From Cyanidiococcus yangmingshanensis (taxonomy: Eukaryota > Rhodophyta > Bangiophyceae > Cyanidiales > Cyanidiaceae): a DNA stretch of 64,000 nucleotides. Both the position numbers and the translations under genes were made by a program. The DNA lies in NCBI GenBank assembly GCA_013995675.1, contig VWRR01000011.1, positions 186,001-250,000 of the forward strand. The letters run 5' to 3'. The notes beneath the pieces were generated by a model. The model did not search any database and was not told the origin of the DNA. It was given only the letters and a program-made list of their open reading frames with translations. This document shows, piece after piece, positions 49,361 to 61,830 of the stretch. Position 1 is the stretch's first letter. The number at the start of each line of letters is the position of its first letter.

Positions 49361-51015
49361 ATGCATGGGAGCACTTCTGCGTTCTGCGCTGCGGACGCAC
49401 CAACAGATTTCCGACTCTCGGTGAAGCGGAAGATAACCTGTAGTAGAGGCAGCGGGAACAAGCCACTTGCGAAGCACTGGCACCATAGCACCCGATCAAG
49501 CTATCTTCCGTGCAGCCGAAGAGAGTTTCTTCGAGGTTTCCTCTTGACAGCCGGTGTGGTCTTCGGGGGTGATCGCTTCTCGTCGACTTTAGCGACAAGC
49601 GCGCCATCCAGCGACTTGGAGATCTTTACTGCCGAACAAACACGAAACTTGTACCAGTTTAGTTTGGCGAACGGGGCGCGTTTTGTTGTCTTTGAACGAA
49701 AAAATACACCAACGGTGAGTTTTACGAGCTTCGTTCGTGTTGGTGCCGTCGATGAGCCTGATGGCAAAACTGGAATGGCCCACTTTTTAGAACATCTGGC
49801 TTTCAAAGGCACGAGGCGTCTGGGTACGAAAAACTGGGCCGAGGAGTCACGCTTGCTCTGCCAACTGGATGCACTCTACGAGAAATGGCGGACGCAGCCG
49901 GACTCTGTACGCGATGAAATCCAATCTCTCTCAAGGCGTGCAGAAGCGTTCGTAGATGAGAATGCTTTCGGTCGACTTGTGCAGCGGAATGGAGGCGTCG
50001 GCCTCAATGCAGCTACCGAGGCAGATTCGACGCAATATTTCTATAATATGCCATCAAACAAACTGGAACTGTGGTTCGCGCTAGAGTCAGAGCGATTCAA
50101 AGATCCTGTCTTTCGTGCATTCGAACGAGAACGGCGGGTGATACTCGAGGAGCGTTTGCTTCGCGTCGAAAATGATGACATCGGCAAGTTTTTGGAAAAG
50201 CTTCTACAGGTGACATTTGAGCGTCACCCGTACAGACGTCCGGTCATTGGGTACAAAAACGATATCGAAAAACTAACCCCTGCAGATGTGCGGTCCTTTT
50301 TCCGCGAACACTATACTGCAGATCGTCTCACGTTTGCCATTGTCGGCGACGTGGAGCATGAGCGTGTTCGAGACTATGCCGAAAGATACTTTTGGACCTC
50401 CCAAATTCGCCTCTTGCATTGCGAGGTAAATCCAGCGATCTCACTGAGCCAGCGCAACAAACCGCGAAGCGCTTTGAAATGGATTTGTCTTCGAATCCGA
50501 TCTGTGTGGTGGCCTATCGAGTTCCACCATTTCAACACGAGGACACTGCACCCTTGCGCGTGATGGCTGACCTCCTCGATGGAGGGCGCCTCAGCCGGCT
50601 GTATAGGGCGCTTGTCGAGACAGGTATGGCATCGTCAGCGAGTTTTAGTCTTGGGTTTCCCGGCGAACGCTTTGCGAACTTGGGGATGTTCCTGGCATTG
50701 CCCTCTCCGGGCCAGAATATGCAGAAGATTCTGGAGGAATGGGAGCACATCATTAAGATGCTTCTAATTCCGAACAATATATCGGAGCAGGAAATACAGC
50801 GAGTCCGCAAAAGGGTCCGGGTTTCCTTACTTAACGCGATCATGGACAACAGCGAGATGGCTGGTCTTCTCGGCAAGTTTGCTTCGATGACCGGTGATGC
50901 CCTCGAGCTGTTTCGGTTCCTTGAACGTATCGGGACAGTTCGTCGCGAGGATATTTCCCGAGTGGCAGAAAAGTACTTGAGATCTGAGAACAGCGTGACC
51001 GGTCTCATTGTTTGA
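49361..51015 (+). CDS. M16 zinc peptidase with twin-arginine signal (frame break)
   Basis: An inverzincin metallopeptidase of the bacterial/cyanobacterial-like M16 group. Zinc motif HFLEH at residues 141-145 (GMAHFLEHLAFKGTRR); the distal Glu is probably Glu242 in LWFALESERFKDP. GGVGLNAATEADSTQYFYN and RHPYRRPVIGYKNDIEKLTP are typical of the cyanobacterial type. Residues 1-50 are basic and Ser/Thr-rich, and residues 52-70 form SRREFLRGFLLTAGVVFGG, a twin-arginine signal with a hydrophobic core. Together they resemble a bipartite signal for Tat export into the thylakoid lumen (inference). The frame changes near 50392-50420 (-1 or +2) before the second M16 half (GGRLSRLYRALVE), which is inactive in this family. 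Joined, about 545 residues; no sign of a second zinc site. Confidence 0.88.
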
Positions 51016-51784: not shown

Positions 51785-53716
51785 TTAAATGCCAAGATCA
51801 TATCGGCGACGACTCGATTCATCGCGCAGCACGGAATACGCAAAAACAATGCGCTGCATGCGTCTCGTGGCCTCGTCGTTCTTGCCATGGTGCATATCGG
51901 GGTGCCATTCTCTGGCCAATGAGCGATACGCTCTTTTGATATCAACTTGCGACGCCGTCCTCGGCACGCCTAGCACAGCGTATAGATCCATATGTCCGAA
52001 TGTAGAGGCGAACCCCTGATCACTCTCACCAGAGCTGCTATTGGATGAGCCCTCTCCAGAGCTGTACGCCCCACTCCCCCAACCTTCTCGTCTATTTGTG
52101 TTGGATTGGTAAGCATTAGAATTTCTCTGCCAGCTATCTTGTGCGAAAGCAGTCCAGTCGCCACCAGACGCAGCCCAGCGAGCCTGCTCTTGCTCCCAAC
52201 GTTTCCAGTAATTGCTCCATATTTCGTCGTCGAAACGCACTGACCACGATTCCGCATTGGACGCAAACCATTCTTCCCATTGATCATTGTTATCCTCAGC
52301 CTCCGCCGCTGCAGTTCCTGGATCTCCAGTACAATGATCCGCATCCCCGTTTTCCTCAAAATCTTCGTCATTCACTGATCCAACCGCATCGTGAGGCGAT
52401 TCATCAAGGTCTTCAGGCTGACACCACATCCTCCAAGTAGAGCGGTCTACCTGCGTGCCGCTGACATTTTCAGTTGCAGAGCTGTACTCATTCGTGCGGT
52501 GATTGGCTCTGTCTGTGCGCACCGGTCCCCTTCGGGCCGTCATGCCGAACAAAACGTCATCATCCATGTCGTCGTTTTGCTCGCGACCGATGCGGACATG
52601 AGCCTGCGCCGTCGCAGAGATATCTGAGAGAATCGTTCTCTGGGTGATTTCCGCGATCGCGGATTCCATCAGACCTTGTTGACGCAACAGCGCGTGAATT
52701 TGCCGCCCAAACGCATCGCTGCTGGTGCAAACAAGAGCAGCGGTATTCTCTTTGTGGCGAATATCGAGGATACGCCGCTGCAGCAGGCTCTGCAAATCAA
52801 CCCCATGAGGCTGAGGATGTACTTGAATGCCGTAGGCGATCCACATCGGGAAGTGCGCATTAAACGGCACATGCTCCAAATGATCAACAAAGAATATCGC
52901 CCGTACCTCGCATTTTCGAACCGTGCCTTCACCACTACAACGACGCCAGTCATCCCACTCGAAAAGCGAATGTGCCGCCGCGAAACCGTGGACGTGATCC
53001 GCAAAGAAGAAGAGCATCTCAGGAAGAGACCCATGTGGGAGAGCAATTCCTCGCCCGAGCGCTTTCGAGACTCGAAGCGTCTCGCCGATGCGCAACGCTT
53101 CGATCCCTAAACGATTCCAACCACCGGTGACACCATGCCTGTCAACAAGGATCTGGAACCGCCCTGCCAGGTTTCCTGGCGGAGACGCAAGCGTTGCCAA
53201 AATTCTACGTTGACAATTCAAAGGACTTTCTATCTGAATAAACTGACCAGGAAGTTTGTGGCTTTGAAAGCACTCATTGCAAACTTGCAAAGTTACTAGA
53301 ATAAAGCGCTCATCCTTGGAAACCAACCGAATGCCAGTGACAACTGCAGTATCTTCGGTGAGATTCTTATTTGACCACAGAAACGAGGCTACTTCCGCGT
53401 CAGCGCGGAGCCGGTAAGCACCGCCCTCACCTGAGCTGGCGCCTGTGGCGAAAAGTGAAACATGACTTCGCGGGCTCGCATATTCCGAAGAATTCCGATC
53501 GTGCTGCCGCCAGGACAACGCGCGAAACCAACGGAACAGCGATCTTCCGCCCAATCCTTGCCATCGCACGCAGCACAAGGTACGAATACCTGTCCGCGGG
53601 CCCACAGCCGAGAGTCTGCTGCTGCGGCCCACAAAAGCCTCCTTTCCATGTTGTCCAAGTGAGCCTCCACCGTAGTTTGGGACGAAAACCGTATATTTGA
53701 CTTGTGCTTGCTGCAT
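51785..53716 (-). CDS. FNR-like domain fused to a C-terminal J domain
   Basis: One uninterrupted 643-codon frame. Residues 1-105 look like a plastid or mitochondrial targeting region (Arg/Ser/Phe-rich). Residues about 115-355 resemble a ferredoxin-NADP reductase-type FAD/NAD(P) module of the plant PKIWI502/At1g15140 kind: KLPGQFIQIESPL, ILATLASPPG, LGRGIAL, and AALVCTSSDAFGRQIHALLR near the end. The nucleotide-binding glycine motif (GTG/GSGISP in relatives) reads FADHVHGFAAAHSL, so NAD(P)H binding may be lost. Residues 360-570 are an acidic, Trp/Ser-rich linker. Residues 577-641 are a J domain (LYAVLGVPRTASQVDIKRAY, HPD at 605-607), so it should stimulate an Hsp70. The family assignment of the first module is by eye. 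Function is unknown; a redox-sensing or redox-scaffold co-chaperone is a guess. Confidence 0.8.
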   Translation of the reverse strand: MQQAQVKYTVFVPNYGGGSLGQHGKEAFVGRSSRLSAVGPRTGIRTLCCVRWQGLGGRSLFRWFRALSWRQHDRNSSEYASPRSHVSLFATGASSGEGGAYRLRADAEVASFLWSNKNLTEDTAVVTGIRLVSKDERFILVTLQVCNECFQSHKLPGQFIQIESPLNCQRRILATLASPPGNLAGRFQILVDRHGVTGGWNRLGIEALRIGETLRVSKALGRGIALPHGSLPEMLFFFADHVHGFAAAHSLFEWDDWRRCSGEGTVRKCEVRAIFFVDHLEHVPFNAHFPMWIAYGIQVHPQPHGVDLQSLLQRRILDIRHKENTAALVCTSSDAFGRQIHALLRQQGLMESAIAEITQRTILSDISATAQAHVRIGREQNDDMDDDVLFGMTARRGPVRTDRANHRTNEYSSATENVSGTQVDRSTWRMWCQPEDLDESPHDAVGSVNDEDFEENGDADHCTGDPGTAAAEAEDNNDQWEEWFASNAESWSVRFDDEIWSNYWKRWEQEQARWAASGGDWTAFAQDSWQRNSNAYQSNTNRREGWGSGAYSSGEGSSNSSSGESDQGFASTFGHMDLYAVLGVPRTASQVDIKRAYRSLAREWHPDMHHGKNDEATRRMQRIVFAYSVLRDESSRRRYDLGI

Positions 53717-54394: not shown

Positions 54395-55210
54395 TTGGAG
54401 TGCGTCGAGTCGACCGAAACAGTAGCAGCTTCGTTAGAAGTGACCACGAACTTGTATACTTTTTCGAGCCGGCTACCTTCACGAATCTTTTATATGCAGC
54501 TCTTCGCGCAAGTTTGGCGCCAGGCGCGAACAGGCTTTCTAAAACAGCGGTTACCGTTACGCTCCGCGACATCGGGCTCTGATTACGCCTCGCCGTTCGC
54601 AGAAATCGATGAGGCAGCAGGTGACTCTCCGTCGAAAGAGCGTAGCAAAAGCCCAGCGACATTGTCAACGACGAGCTCAACTTCGTCGAGAGTTGCTGTT
54701 GCGAGTGTAAACCGTGTTCTTTTGGTCGGGCACGTAGGCCGTGACCCTGTTACGAAACAGTTGACGGCAGACGGGAGCACCGTGACCCTGTTCCCACTTG
54801 CGACGAAAGAGGTGACTTCCGGATCGGCCAACAGTTCCAGCTCAGTCACTCAGTGGCACAACATAGCAGTCTACGACTCGAGGCTTGGTGAAATAGTGCA
54901 GAACGTCTGTCGCAAAGGATACCAAGTATATGTCGAAGGGAGGCTACAGAGTCGTCAGTGGACAGATGCTAAGGGGACTGTTCGCACTCACTTTGAAATA
55001 GCCGTGAACCCTTTCAAGGGCTCTGTGCTTGTTCTCAATAAGCCCTCGCCTGCATCGGCTTCAAGCGAAGGGTACCCGCCGACTGGGCGGACTGAGCGCC
55101 ATGCCGAATCAAGTGCTGATAACACTCCAGTGGCCCCAGTATCATTTCGCAGAAGGTCGAGTGGTCTCACCAAAGACTTGTTTCCCGAGCCTGACGAGCG
55201 CAGTAACTGA
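54395..55210 (+). CDS. SSB: Single-stranded DNA-binding protein, organellar
   Basis: A bacterial-type SSB that coats single-stranded DNA during mitochondrial or plastid replication. The OB fold is at about 104-215: VNRVLLVGHVGRDPVTKQL, TLFPLATKEV, TQWHNIAVYDSRLGEIV and GYQVYVEGRLQSRQWTD match the E. coli/mitochondrial pattern. The N-terminal 100 residues are basic and Ser/Thr-rich, the expected targeting region. Met34 at 54494 (MQLFAQVWRQARTG) begins the more typical presequence, while the ATG at 54395 gives an extra 33 residues. The C-terminal tail (Ser/Pro-rich, ending DLFPEPDERSN) lacks the bacterial acidic DDDIPF end. Complete frame. Confidence 0.92.
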   Translation: MECVESTETVAASLEVTTNLYTFSSRLPSRIFYMQLFAQVWRQARTGFLKQRLPLRSATSGSDYASPFAEIDEAAGDSPSKERSKSPATLSTTSSTSSRVAVASVNRVLLVGHVGRDPVTKQLTADGSTVTLFPLATKEVTSGSANSSSSVTQWHNIAVYDSRLGEIVQNVCRKGYQVYVEGRLQSRQWTDAKGTVRTHFEIAVNPFKGSVLVLNKPSPASASSEGYPPTGRTERHAESSADNTPVAPVSFRRRSSGLTKDLFPEPDERSN

Positions 55211-55386: not shown

Positions 55387-57048
55387 CTATGGATCGACTC
55401 GAACCCTACATGCAAGCAGGACATCGGCATCTACAGGGTAACGTCGCAATTCCGGGTTTGAAGCAAAGATCCTCTCGCTTATCGGCACAATAAGGAGCAT
55501 GCGGCCCGTTTGAGGGATAGGCACCCGCGCCGCCTGTCGAGTCGATGCAAGCTCTCGACATAAATGCCGAAATCTCGAGCGAGTCCCCTCATGTGCTTCG
55601 GCTGCTGGGCTAAGCACAAAGATCACAGATGCAGCACCGAATAAGCGAGCAATACTGGGATCGTCGATGAATTCACGGCCCTGTACATATAATTCCTTTG
55701 GGAATCGCGCTTGTTCCTCGGCAAGTCGCCGTTTGTCCAAAAAAGGAACGCGAACGGCGATTTCGACAGATTGATTTTCCGCATCGCGTAGAGTACATGA
55801 CCATGCAGTCTCGATATTGTTCGTGCTAGTGACCCCATCGCCCTCTGCTTGTGATGCAAGAGCATGATTCGAGCCTTGCTGGAGCGCTTCAGTGAGAAAC
55901 GAGTGCTGCAAGTGCTCGCAGTAGGCGCTGAGGTCTTCATCTGTTACTTCATCGGCCGGATCCAGTTCCTGGCATGAAACGCGAAGCCAAGTGTCGCAAT
56001 CGTGATCCAGAATTTCACACCACCGTTGCCAATTCTCATCTGTTACCGGCTGTGGTCGAAACCATTGAAGCCGAGAAGAAGCGTGGAACGAGTCACCCGG
56101 CAGCAAGATTATCTCTCCTAGAACCCCCTCTATCACACGTTCTATGGCATATGTGAGTTCCGCCGTGACACCCTGTTCCTTCGGAATCTGATTCTCGTGA
56201 TGCTCCAGATAATCTAGTGCACGCCGTAGGAGCATACACATATTCTCTGGCGTTTCCATGTTTAAGAGGCACAAGGCGATATCATCATCAATCGCTACGC
56301 TCAAACGCTGAGGCATATGAGCCTGGATGAAGTCTTTCAAGGCGTGAGGCAGCCGTTCGCGAATATCCTCAGATACCAAAGGCAGAAAGAGGCGCGACTT
56401 TTCAGCGGGCCTCTCGACGGATTTCGAGTTTGGAATAGAGCCGATGCCGCGACTCTTGCGTAGGCTCTGACCGCTTTCACCCATCGCCAAGTGCTCGATA
56501 TATGCTATACGCTTCCTCAGGGGGACACGATCATCGATCAAGTGCTCAACTCGGACTCTCTCTAGGAAACGAAAGCTGCCCTCCTCGGCGAGTTTGGCGA
56601 CAGTTTCTAATATCTCGCGAGGGATTTTGCACGCAACGTCTGGCAAAAGATGAGGGAACAGCACAAATCGAAGAACGGCCTCATCAAGTGTCGACATAGA
56701 ACGAACTTGACGCACTTTTACTACAATATTTTTCACAGTAATAAAGAAGCCCTCTGAGCGTCTCCATAACAAACGCAGCGTGCGCTCACTCACGCGTTCC
56801 TCATTTCCTGCCATACCGAGCATGTTGTGCAGCCCTTGAACACAATCAGCAAAACTGGGGTACCTTTTCACTGCCAGCTCCATGCTTGGGCGTCGAGCGG
56901 TAGCTCCTGCGTGTCCTGACTCGTGGAGGGGCAACCGCCCTGACGCTGACGCTGGCGGCGGGGCTCGCTTTCGTTGCCGTGCTCTCTCAGGGACTTGTTT
57001 GATGAAGCCCTCGCTGCTCATTCCCAAGTTATCTACACAGATGCGCAA
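55387..57048 (-). CDS. Unknown 553-residue protein
   Basis: A single intact frame that I do not recognise. It is largely helical and soluble: charged helices at about 70-220 (LHNMLGMAGNEERVSERTLR, TLDEAVLRFVLFPHLL), a helical region at 270-320 (MCMLLRRALDYLEHHENQ), an aromatic segment at 345-380 (WFRPQPVTDENWQRWCEILD), and a mixed alpha/beta C-terminus (ASVIFVLSPAAEA, FRHLCRELASTRQ, MLLIVPISERIF) that by eye resembles a SPOC-like or other small domain; I would not assign it. Arg/Pro-rich residues 18-40 could be a nuclear signal. No membrane helix or clear targeting peptide. A Met at about residue 10 or 56 may be the real start. Confidence 0.65.
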   Translation of the reverse strand: MRICVDNLGMSSEGFIKQVPERARQRKRAPPPASASGRLPLHESGHAGATARRPSMELAVKRYPSFADCVQGLHNMLGMAGNEERVSERTLRLLWRRSEGFFITVKNIVVKVRQVRSMSTLDEAVLRFVLFPHLLPDVACKIPREILETVAKLAEEGSFRFLERVRVEHLIDDRVPLRKRIAYIEHLAMGESGQSLRKSRGIGSIPNSKSVERPAEKSRLFLPLVSEDIRERLPHALKDFIQAHMPQRLSVAIDDDIALCLLNMETPENMCMLLRRALDYLEHHENQIPKEQGVTAELTYAIERVIEGVLGEIILLPGDSFHASSRLQWFRPQPVTDENWQRWCEILDHDCDTWLRVSCQELDPADEVTDEDLSAYCEHLQHSFLTEALQQGSNHALASQAEGDGVTSTNNIETAWSCTLRDAENQSVEIAVRVPFLDKRRLAEEQARFPKELYVQGREFIDDPSIARLFGAASVIFVLSPAAEAHEGTRSRFRHLCRELASTRQAARVPIPQTGRMLLIVPISERIFASNPELRRYPVDADVLLACRVRVDP

Positions 57049-58719: not shown

Positions 58720-59523
58720 CTATCGGGAACCCTCGTCGTTATCATCCACGCCCTGCCAGAGCCCTTCAAGATCATACCGCTCTCGAGCAGCAGGGGTCAT
58801 GATGTGGACAATGTAGGAGCCGAGGTCGATCAACATCCAATCATCTGATTCGCGACCCTCGATGAAAGGGTCTTCGCCTTCCACAGTCACGTTCCTTTCC
58901 ACGAGTCGTCGCTGGATACTATCCGCCATATGTATTATATGGTTCGTGGTGAAACCGGTCGCAATGATGAACGTGTCCGTGAAACTCGCCTTCTCGGAAA
59001 CGTCGAGGACGACAACGTTCAGGGCTTGTTCCTCTTCGAGCCAGTGTGCAACTTCTGGCACAGACGGTAGGTCGCCGCGCACCTCTGGCAACGGAACTTT
59101 TTCAGGACCAACCAGTTGCAGCTCGCCTGAATCAACCGAGAGATCTTCGAATTTTCTAGCCGCAGACGAAAACGCTGCGTGAGCAGTCCAATGGCTTCGT
59201 TGCGGTCGCAATCTAAGCACGACTGATCCTTTCGAAACGCTACTCAGAACGCCTTGGTGGATCGAGGTTCGGGATTTGGCCATTCCAACCAGCAGCCTTT
59301 TGTTCACCCAGCCTTCTGCAACTCTTCCATAAAAAAATGGACGCAAGTCTCTGCAGCAACCCTCACTCAAAATCTGAAACCGCTCCGAAAGCCGCGCTGA
59401 CGGAACAGGTACCTGTTTCAAGGAGACCGCAACCGACGAAAAACTAGCGACGACCGACTTGCAGAACTTGAGGGACATGCCCGGTGCCCCCAGAGACGGG
59501 AGTCCAAGCCACACCTCCTTCAA
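58720..59523 (-). CDS. RsfS/Iojap ribosome-silencing factor, organellar
   Basis: Homologue of bacterial RsfS and of mitochondrial MALSU1 or plastid Iojap, which bind uL14 of the large ribosomal subunit and hinder subunit joining or aid assembly. The domain is at about 155-258: VPEVAHWLEEEQALNVVVLD, SEKASFTDTFIIATGFTTNH, DPFIEGRESDDWMLIDLGSY and IVHIMTPAARERYDLEGLW, all close to the family consensus. The first 130 residues are basic and Ser/Leu-rich, likely an organelle-targeting extension. Possible starts: 59523, Met16 (59478) or Met81 (59283). Mitochondrial versus plastid is not decided. Confidence 0.93.
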   Translation of the reverse strand: MKEVWLGLPSLGAPGMSLKFCKSVVASFSSVAVSLKQVPVPSARLSERFQILSEGCCRDLRPFFYGRVAEGWVNKRLLVGMAKSRTSIHQGVLSSVSKGSVVLRLRPQRSHWTAHAAFSSAARKFEDLSVDSGELQLVGPEKVPLPEVRGDLPSVPEVAHWLEEEQALNVVVLDVSEKASFTDTFIIATGFTTNHIIHMADSIQRRLVERNVTVEGEDPFIEGRESDDWMLIDLGSYIVHIMTPAARERYDLEGLWQGVDDNDEGSR

Positions 59524-60147: not shown

Positions 60148-61830
60148 ATGATGTCAACGTTGCTAATGAAGGCTGACTTGCTCTTTCAGCACGCTACACA
60201 GGCATACAATTATGTGCTTGCAGAGGCTGAACTTTTTGGGGCGTCGTACCTTGCACTGCCTGCGTTTTTCGACCATGCTGTGGCTAGAATTACCGAGTTA
60301 GGGATTGCCTCGGAGCGCGAAATCCGTTTCCTGCTCTTGCTTCTTCTCGCATACGTTTTCGCATTTGTATATCGGTGTTTACGTTCGCCACGCTGGCGCC
60401 ACGTGTTCTCCGTGTGCGCTGGTGCGGCATTGGGTCAAACTTTCTGTGGGGCCACTGGCTGGCTCTACCCGCTGCTTGCGGCTTTGGTGAGCTTCCAGTT
60501 TATCCATGTGCTGGGACCGTCCCGTGCTGCTCCCGCTGTCTTCGTATTCAATCTGCTCTTTCTGTTCGCGTTACACCTGCATCGGCAACTAACCGATCCT
60601 TTTGGATGGCATTTGGACGCGACTTTCATGCAAATGATCGTGACGCAGAAGCTGTCTGCCCTCGCGCTGAATCTTTCTGACGGACTGGAGAAACCATCCC
60701 GTGTGGATTCGCAATCGACACGAAATCAGAATGCGGTGAGGAAAACGCCGTCAATGCTCGAGCTCCTCGCATTCGTCTTTTTTCCTCCATGCTTTTTGAT
60801 GGGGCCCACAATCGAGTACATGGATTGGTACCAGAATGCGCATGACTTTTTGCCGCCACAACTGCATAATCGGCAAAGTACTGGGTCCGCCCCAGCAGGC
60901 GCAGCTCCGAACGCACGGCCAAGTATTCGTTCATCCGTTGCTGCGTCTTCGTTACGCTTTCTGCAGGCATTGCTGTTCCTCACATGCTTTCAGGCGGCGA
61001 ATGCGAAATTCCCGAGCGATTTACTCGCGGACGCAGGCTGGTTGCAGCAACACCGTGCCAGCGGTATTTTCTGGCTTTACATGCGCATTTGGCTTTCCCT
61101 GTTAGGGCTTCGTTGCAAATACTATTTTGGATTCAAAATCGCAGAAGGTGCAGCGATAATGTCTGGTGTCGGCTTTACTGGATATTTGACGCCGAGTACG
61201 CGTGAGTTGAACCCCCGCCAGACTGCGACGACGTTGAGGCGAGAATCGCTTGAAACCAGTGCACGCTTCGATCGTGTAACGACTATCGACGTACTTGGCT
61301 TCGAGCTCGCTGGTAGTATTCGAGATGCCGCCGCTGCATGGAACAAACCGACAAATACATGGCTCCGACGGTACGTGTATGAACGGTTGCCGCGTCGATA
61401 TCAGCTGGATTTATATGGAACCTACGTCGTTTCCGCATTGTGGCACGGAATCGCGCCTGGATACTACATGTTTTTTGTGACGAGCGCGTTTCTGACGAGT
61501 CTTGAACGACAGTGGAGGCGAGTTCTACGTGATTTAGGCCTCGATCGAAAGATACAACAACATCTTGTCCTCTCCGTCGCTGTTCGGACGTTCACCTGGG
61601 CATGGACGAGTGCAATGTTGAATTACTTCATCATCTCATTCGTTGTGCTGACAAGCGATCGTTCGTACTTGGTGTGGTCGACACTTTCTTGGTGGGGACA
61701 CAAACTCCTTCTTTTAGAGCTTATCATTACGATGTTTGCACGAATTTTGACGTTGTTGGCGACGAACGCCGCTCATGCTGCAAGGCCAAAGCCAACACCT
61801 GAGACGACCCGCAGGAAAATTGATGAATAA
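60148..61830 (+). CDS. MBOAT lysophospholipid acyltransferase
   Basis: A polytopic ER enzyme that reacylates lysophospholipids (the LPCAT/ALE1 class). About nine to ten hydrophobic segments are spread along 560 residues. The signature WNKPTNTWLRRYVYERL begins at residue 398 (W-N-x-x-T-x-x-W-L-x-x-YVY-x-R), and the catalytic His433 lies in VSALWHGIAPGYYMFF. The earlier FFPPCFLMGPTIEYMDW matches the family's G-P-x-x-x-Y motif. The hydrophilic loop at about 185-275 is poorly conserved. The C-terminus (KPTPETTRRKIDE) is basic and polar; no KKXX. Substrate preference cannot be read from sequence; plant LPCAT and yeast Ale1 are the nearest relatives I can name. Intact frame. Confidence 0.93.
   Translation: MMSTLLMKADLLFQHATQAYNYVLAEAELFGASYLALPAFFDHAVARITELGIASEREIRFLLLLLLAYVFAFVYRCLRSPRWRHVFSVCAGAALGQTFCGATGWLYPLLAALVSFQFIHVLGPSRAAPAVFVFNLLFLFALHLHRQLTDPFGWHLDATFMQMIVTQKLSALALNLSDGLEKPSRVDSQSTRNQNAVRKTPSMLELLAFVFFPPCFLMGPTIEYMDWYQNAHDFLPPQLHNRQSTGSAPAGAAPNARPSIRSSVAASSLRFLQALLFLTCFQAANAKFPSDLLADAGWLQQHRASGIFWLYMRIWLSLLGLRCKYYFGFKIAEGAAIMSGVGFTGYLTPSTRELNPRQTATTLRRESLETSARFDRVTTIDVLGFELAGSIRDAAAAWNKPTNTWLRRYVYERLPRRYQLDLYGTYVVSALWHGIAPGYYMFFVTSAFLTSLERQWRRVLRDLGLDRKIQQHLVLSVAVRTFTWAWTSAMLNYFIISFVVLTSDRSYLVWSTLSWWGHKLLLLELIITMFARILTLLATNAAHAARPKPTPETTRRKIDE

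Follow-up and report, generated by a model that had tools for sequence, protein, structure and literature searches.

A gene of the red alga Cyanidiococcus yangmingshanensis joins a divergent FNR-like domain to a C-terminal J domain

The fusion gene, its relatives, and its J domain

We analyzed a 64,000-nucleotide stretch of contig VWRR01000011.1 (positions 186,001 to 250,000; hereafter, the window), which is part of the 12.07-Mb, 20-contig genome of the hot-spring red alga Cyanidiococcus yangmingshanensis and in which one gene codes for an FNR-like domain fused to a J domain. This gene occupies window positions 51785..53716 on the minus strand, with its ATG at 53716 and its stop codon at 51785-51787, and it encodes 643 amino acids (aa). 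A first-pass annotation of the window had reported an uninterrupted 643-codon frame at this position. Translation bore this out for the minus strand, which had gone unstated, the plus strand being interrupted by stops. Based on the six-frame stop frequency of the window, an open run of this length has a chance probability of ~1.3e-8. Codon-position G+C of the gene (0.60/0.48/0.53) shows weak periodicity, so its coding status rests on conserved relatives.

A protein-database search, in which the 7988 candidates sharing most words were scored (threshold E<=0.001), revealed three clusters with the same architecture. One is a second record of the same species, which we take as another assembly (P0002, 644 aa, 99% identity to the window protein, P0001), and the others are two diverged metagenome proteins, P0003 (532 aa, 67%) and P0004 (659 aa, 54%). 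All three align with P0001 across the FNR-like part, the linker, and the Trp-rich module, and each carries its J domain at the C-terminus. P0003 has no N-terminal extension, starting at the equivalent of residue 113, and its sequence is probably cut at that end. C. merolae, Cyanidium, and Galdieria did not appear by name among the matches of this search; since their proteomes were not searched by name, this does not indicate absence. Below, "the three fusions" refers to P0001, P0003, and P0004, P0002 being omitted as the same species.

Since the second species record and both diverged metagenome proteins share this architecture, an assembly-made join is very unlikely, and the fusion is best regarded as one gene. 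The notion that two adjacent genes were joined through assembly or gene-model error carries almost no weight with us: no point in its favor was found, and against it stand the unbroken genomic frame, the identical join in all of these relatives, and a middle module that is conserved across the join. A scan of prokaryote genomes returned 127 stretches with one confirmed locus (L021), which we rejected because it resembles the fusion in the J domain only; what its frame encodes looks like an ordinary DnaJ-type protein, and its WERWF word sits in a different frame. Among viral contigs, 60 stretches fit the pattern, none of which encodes a relative of the fusion.

The J domain forms the protein end (residues 574-643; window 51788..51997, minus strand), as delimited by Pfam and alignment. 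The claim that it is a bona fide J domain with HPD at residues 605-607 held up fully: Pfam DnaJ (PF00226) matches residues 577-640 with 73.2 bits (E 1.8e-20; cut-off 27.8), and H605, P606, and D607 appear in the translation and are invariant in the four aligned fusions. Identity of this domain between relatives is 83-89%. PF00226 is the sole Pfam match at E<=1 in the whole protein, which has neither a Zn-finger nor a DnaJ C-terminal domain. With the J domain alone in common with DnaJ, the fusion protein is, in the best reading of its sequence, a class C (type III) J-protein. The 13 other J-domain matches in the same genome align to the fusion from residue 543 onward only. HPD-bearing J domains stimulate Hsp70, and by analogy the J domain of the fusion should stimulate an Hsp70 as well.

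Two segments lie between the FNR-like part and the J domain. The first-pass annotation had described a single acidic, Trp-rich linker; both features are present, but they belong to separate segments, one variable and one conserved. More specifically, residues 366-475 (window 52292..52621, minus strand) form an acidic linker, with 26 D/E and 9 K/R in 110 residues and 28-30% identity between relatives, and residues 476-552 (window 52061..52291, minus strand) form a Trp-rich module, with 10 Trp in 77 residues and 82% and 71% identity between relatives, that is helical in a low-confidence model. Residues 430-573 have no other match in their own genome, and none among PDB sequences or Pfam at E<=10. 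At the opposite end, residues 1-112 (window 53381..53716, minus strand) make up an N-terminal extension that is poorly conserved and presequence-like in the alignment: the first 105 residues include 15 K/R and 4 D/E, and 32/105 are identical to P0004. This composition fits a presequence, the organelle not being specified by it.

Kinship and altered motifs of the FNR-like domain

The first-pass annotation had placed an FNR-like segment at about residues 115-355, proposing that it be checked against the FAD_binding_6 and NAD_binding_1 families. That search returned no match in Pfam, neither within the whole protein (E<=1) nor with the segment as an isolated query (E<=10). Likewise, NCBIfam gave nothing above cut-off for the FNR-like part, and P0003 reached 17.3 bits against FAD_binding_6, below the cut-off of 21.1. 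A profile built from the three fusions had no match among PDB sequences at E<=10, nor among 7234 database candidates at the same threshold, where length limits of 0.55-1.75 x 255 aa exclude full-length fusions.

The placement itself was confirmed by comparison with a family alignment. An FNRL-type gene of the same genome (P0005; C4:227040-227351) was found via PF00175, and its family comprises 382 proteins at E<=0.001 among 1218 candidates, including the Brachypodium fruit protein pKIWI502. For all 120 listed members of this family PF00175 is the only precomputed domain, so there are no J fusions among them. P0005 and 29 of the listed relatives were aligned to give a 30-row FNRL hidden Markov model (HMM), which scored the four fusions P0001 to P0004 at 39.3, 37.0, 43.6, and 45.2 bits, respectively, relative to 7.4 bits for the best of 2000 shuffled copies of the segment. 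In profile-profile comparison, the fusion matched the pKIWI502/FNRL family with 98.7% probability (E 3.2e-16) over 221 columns at 19% identity. The match spans residues 123-354 (window 52655..53350, minus strand), which thus appear as a divergent, two-domain, pKIWI502/FNRL-like module of the FNR superfamily.

Structure prediction yielded a flavin barrel plus a Rossmann fold for this part, a fold that is partly imposed by the family alignment used, and structure-comparison matches of the prediction include canonical FNRs. A first AlphaFold run with four rows reached a pLDDT of 36.6; Foldseek of that model returned FNR-type rows (best 2.0e-8), but TM-scores (by target) were only 0.12-0.35 and the rmsd was 13-17 A. 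We count this as weak support for an FNR fold because matches of a low-confidence model can be meaningless. Taken together, profile comparison and predicted fold support assignment of residues 123-354 to the FNR superfamily.

The annotation had gone further and called the segment PKIWI502-type, and on this point the evidence is divided. In its favor, the reverse comparison, with the three-row fusion profile, gave 22.5 bits for Brachypodium pKIWI502 and 8.6 bits, only just clear of the best shuffle (6.6), for the local FNRL; the six other FNR-type frames of the genome, including a canonical FNR named from its sequence (the C14 copy), were absent from the 13 matches listed down to E 9.7. The hhalign probabilities of the fusion profile were likewise 93.1% for pKIWI502, 12.7% for the local FNRL, and <=1.1% for the six other FNR frames. 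The forward FNRL profile did not discriminate: with it, the C14 FNR reached 57 bits and a cytochrome b5 reductase-like protein 35 bits, which makes the 39 bits of the window protein unspecific for FNRL. In a 22-row tree, the fusions fell to the FNRL side (support 39/84); the stem was 3.27 changes long per column, and the result came with warnings about long branches and the letter make-up of the window row. On balance, FNRL ancestry is favored, though weakly. FNRL, pKIWI502, and Arabidopsis At1g15140 are presumably one protein, a plastid NADPH-dependent oxidoreductase with which the fusion is collinear over the 221 matched columns; the fusion differs from it by its low identity, the missing NAD(P) loop, and a C-terminal extension with a J domain. 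Canonical FNR shares the superfamily fold, and the C14 copy matches PF00175, but hhalign of the fusion profile to it gave 0.2%. In the FNRL/pKIWI502-type gene of this alga on C4 (L012 1450-2730, minus strand) the nucleotide loop is intact (GSGIAP), so that the gene offers a natural control for the degenerate domain.

We then compared the three fusions with 51 positions conserved at >=90% in 46 FNRL rows; the last three positions fall past the trimmed window row, so that those cells are unreliable. Eighteen positions are kept, 7 are kept in part, and 26 are lost. All three fusions have other residues in place of the first Gly and the Ser in GSG and of the Pro that follows this motif; within YYGxR the Y, G, and R, and within GYVQ the G and Y, are likewise replaced in all three. 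The Gly of the Cys-Gly motif is replaced in two of the three; the last Gly of the nucleotide loop, the Gln of GYVQ (Q313), and the Cys of Cys-Gly (C330) are kept. As the first-pass annotation had stated, ADHVHG stands at 239-244 in place of the GSG motif, and the GSG/GTG loop with its Pro is represented by DHVHGFAA. At 17 of the 26 lost positions one replacement residue is common to all three fusions, and at 3 there is a gap in all. Across 40-residue stretches of the FNR-like part, invariance peaks at residues 239-278 (window 52883..53002, minus strand), the former nucleotide-loop region (34/40 invariant in the window protein, P0003, and P0004; reached in 10/10000 shuffles). We read this region as a rebuilt site rather than one in decay. 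The nucleotide half is more conserved than the flavin half (76% and 68% versus 68% and 59% identity of the window protein with P0003 and P0004, respectively). A thioredoxin-like CxxC at 146-149 was rejected, being absent from P0003 and P0004.

These losses bear on whether the domain could still be an enzyme. That the domain is still a working oxidoreductase, using a modified pyridine-nucleotide site or a different electron donor and tethered to the J domain for its own folding or placement, is highly improbable in our judgment: the FNR fold is intact in the prediction and C330 and Q313 are kept, yet the GSG, Pro, YYGxR, and GYVQ residues listed above are replaced in every fusion and the Cys-Gly motif is broken in two of three. 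Because the NAD(P) loop is lost, a scaffold or sensor role appears likelier than a reductase, in agreement with the earlier suggestion. A flavin or redox sensor, as proposed in the first-pass annotation, we consider rather unlikely, although it has more to recommend it than enzymatic activity. In such a sensor, FAD (or a different nucleotide) would still be bound, and the way in which the J domain engages Hsp70 would depend on the occupancy or oxidation state of the FNR-like domain. The flavin half retains PG at 156-157, P180, W200, G221, and G223, neither C269 nor C330 varies among the four aligned fusions, and the green-lineage J-proteins CDJ3-5 are reported to have redox-active Fe-S domains and to work with HSP70B (PMC9407819). 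Against a sensor, the flavin half has kept 8 of its 16 conserved positions and lost 8, this half is the less conserved one, and an electron route is not evident without the NAD(P) loop.

Possible roles of the fusion protein

J-proteins decide the targets of Hsp70. The reading that we favor, at a probability of roughly 0.5, is that the window protein is a class C J-protein, probably organellar and most likely plastidial, in which a retired FNR-like domain is kept as a recognition module that docks or senses a partner for Hsp70. It builds on elements that were observed or computed, namely, the fusion, the FNR homology, the predicted fold, the motif loss, the conservation of the replaced region, and the J domain with its HPD. 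The nuclear-encoded protein would probably be imported into an organelle, most likely the plastid. Its FNR-like domain would have started out as a flavoenzyme of the FNR superfamily, with a duplicate of the FNRL/pKIWI502 oxidoreductase as the most likely source, and lost its NAD(P)H loop. The retired domain would have been retained to hold a partner or client, most likely via the 239-278 region, and the flexible acidic linker and the Trp-rich helical module may set spacing or supply a second contact. The J domain would then make the Hsp70 of the compartment hydrolyse ATP and thereby clamp or remodel the partner. Organelle, partner binding, and Hsp70 stimulation are what we infer here. The plastid is favored on two indirect grounds: Arabidopsis FNRL has been described as a chloroplast oxidoreductase (PMC11500984), and the plastid genes reported for red algae include dnaK (PMC5010701).

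Several points weigh against this recognition-module reading. Organellar import is argued from N-terminal composition together with those indirect points. Conservative exchanges (V to I, K to R, Y to F) make up part of the 26 losses, and conservation of 239-278 could also mean an altered ligand site instead of a docking surface. A search for Hsp70 over the 20 contigs gave 9 matches at five places, and the protein may act in the cytosol or the mitochondrion instead. A cytosolic or mitochondrial adaptor J-protein, with the FNR-like part as a passive fold and the Trp-rich module as the true client binder, strikes us as improbable. At 82% and 71%, the Trp-rich module exceeds both halves of the FNR-like part in conservation, and the presequence evidence is weak, but such an adaptor leaves the conserved block at 239-278 unexplained.

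DnaJ-Fer proteins, in which the J domain is N-terminal, are among the closest known counterparts (Chlamydomonas CDJ3-5, the Arabidopsis DJC76 clade, and Thaumarchaeota), combining a J domain with a plastid electron-transfer fold in a similar layout; in the fusion, the J domain is C-terminal and its partner is an FNR fold instead of a ferredoxin domain. A bacterial-type ferredoxin domain was not found in the fusion, no ferredoxin Pfam family matching it at E<=1. CDJ3-5 of green algae are reported to carry a J domain and a ferredoxin domain and to act with HSP70B (PMC9407819). The DnaJ-Fer protein was undetected in Rhodophyta and Glaucophyta, the authors cautioning that data were scarce (PMC3564930), and the fusion thus occurs in a lineage reported to be without it. 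The remark in the first-pass annotation that an FNR-like/J pairing was not previously known agrees with our finding no earlier description in the literature searched, most subscription papers being outside its reach.

Should the FNR-like part act as a sensor or a docking module, it would be a second electron-transfer fold coupled to Hsp70. A more specific proposal, which we regard as unlikely, is that a link between a redox protein and Hsp70 arose independently in red algae around Cyanidiococcus, parallel to the green DnaJ-ferredoxin: the rebuilt nucleotide site of a retired FNRL would gate the recruitment of plastid DnaK by reading flavin, pyridine nucleotide, or a redox partner. The protein also offers a clear case of a flavoenzyme fold without its nucleotide loop that is yet most constrained around that loop, and its role is open to binding and ATPase assays.

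Neighbouring genes

Eight nearby frames were scanned, of which five have a Pfam match and three have none at E<=0.01; the neighbouring genes give no functional clue to the fusion. Among those without a match at this threshold is a 553-codon frame (window 55387-57048, minus strand). An M16 peptidase is split across two overlapping frames (window 49361-51015, plus strand). Because its M16_C profile breaks off at position 41 in the first open reading frame and picks up again at position 44, only a few bases away, in the second, the split looks like a frameshift, real or from sequencing, rather than an intron. Long N-terminal extensions, possibly organellar, mark both a single-strand DNA-binding protein (PF00436, 4.1e-24; window 54395-55210, plus strand) and an RsfS ribosome-silencing factor (PF02410, 1.1e-26; window 58720-59523, minus strand). 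A 560-codon frame (window 60148-61830, plus strand) codes for an MBOAT-family membrane-bound O-acyltransferase (PF03062, 4.3e-38).
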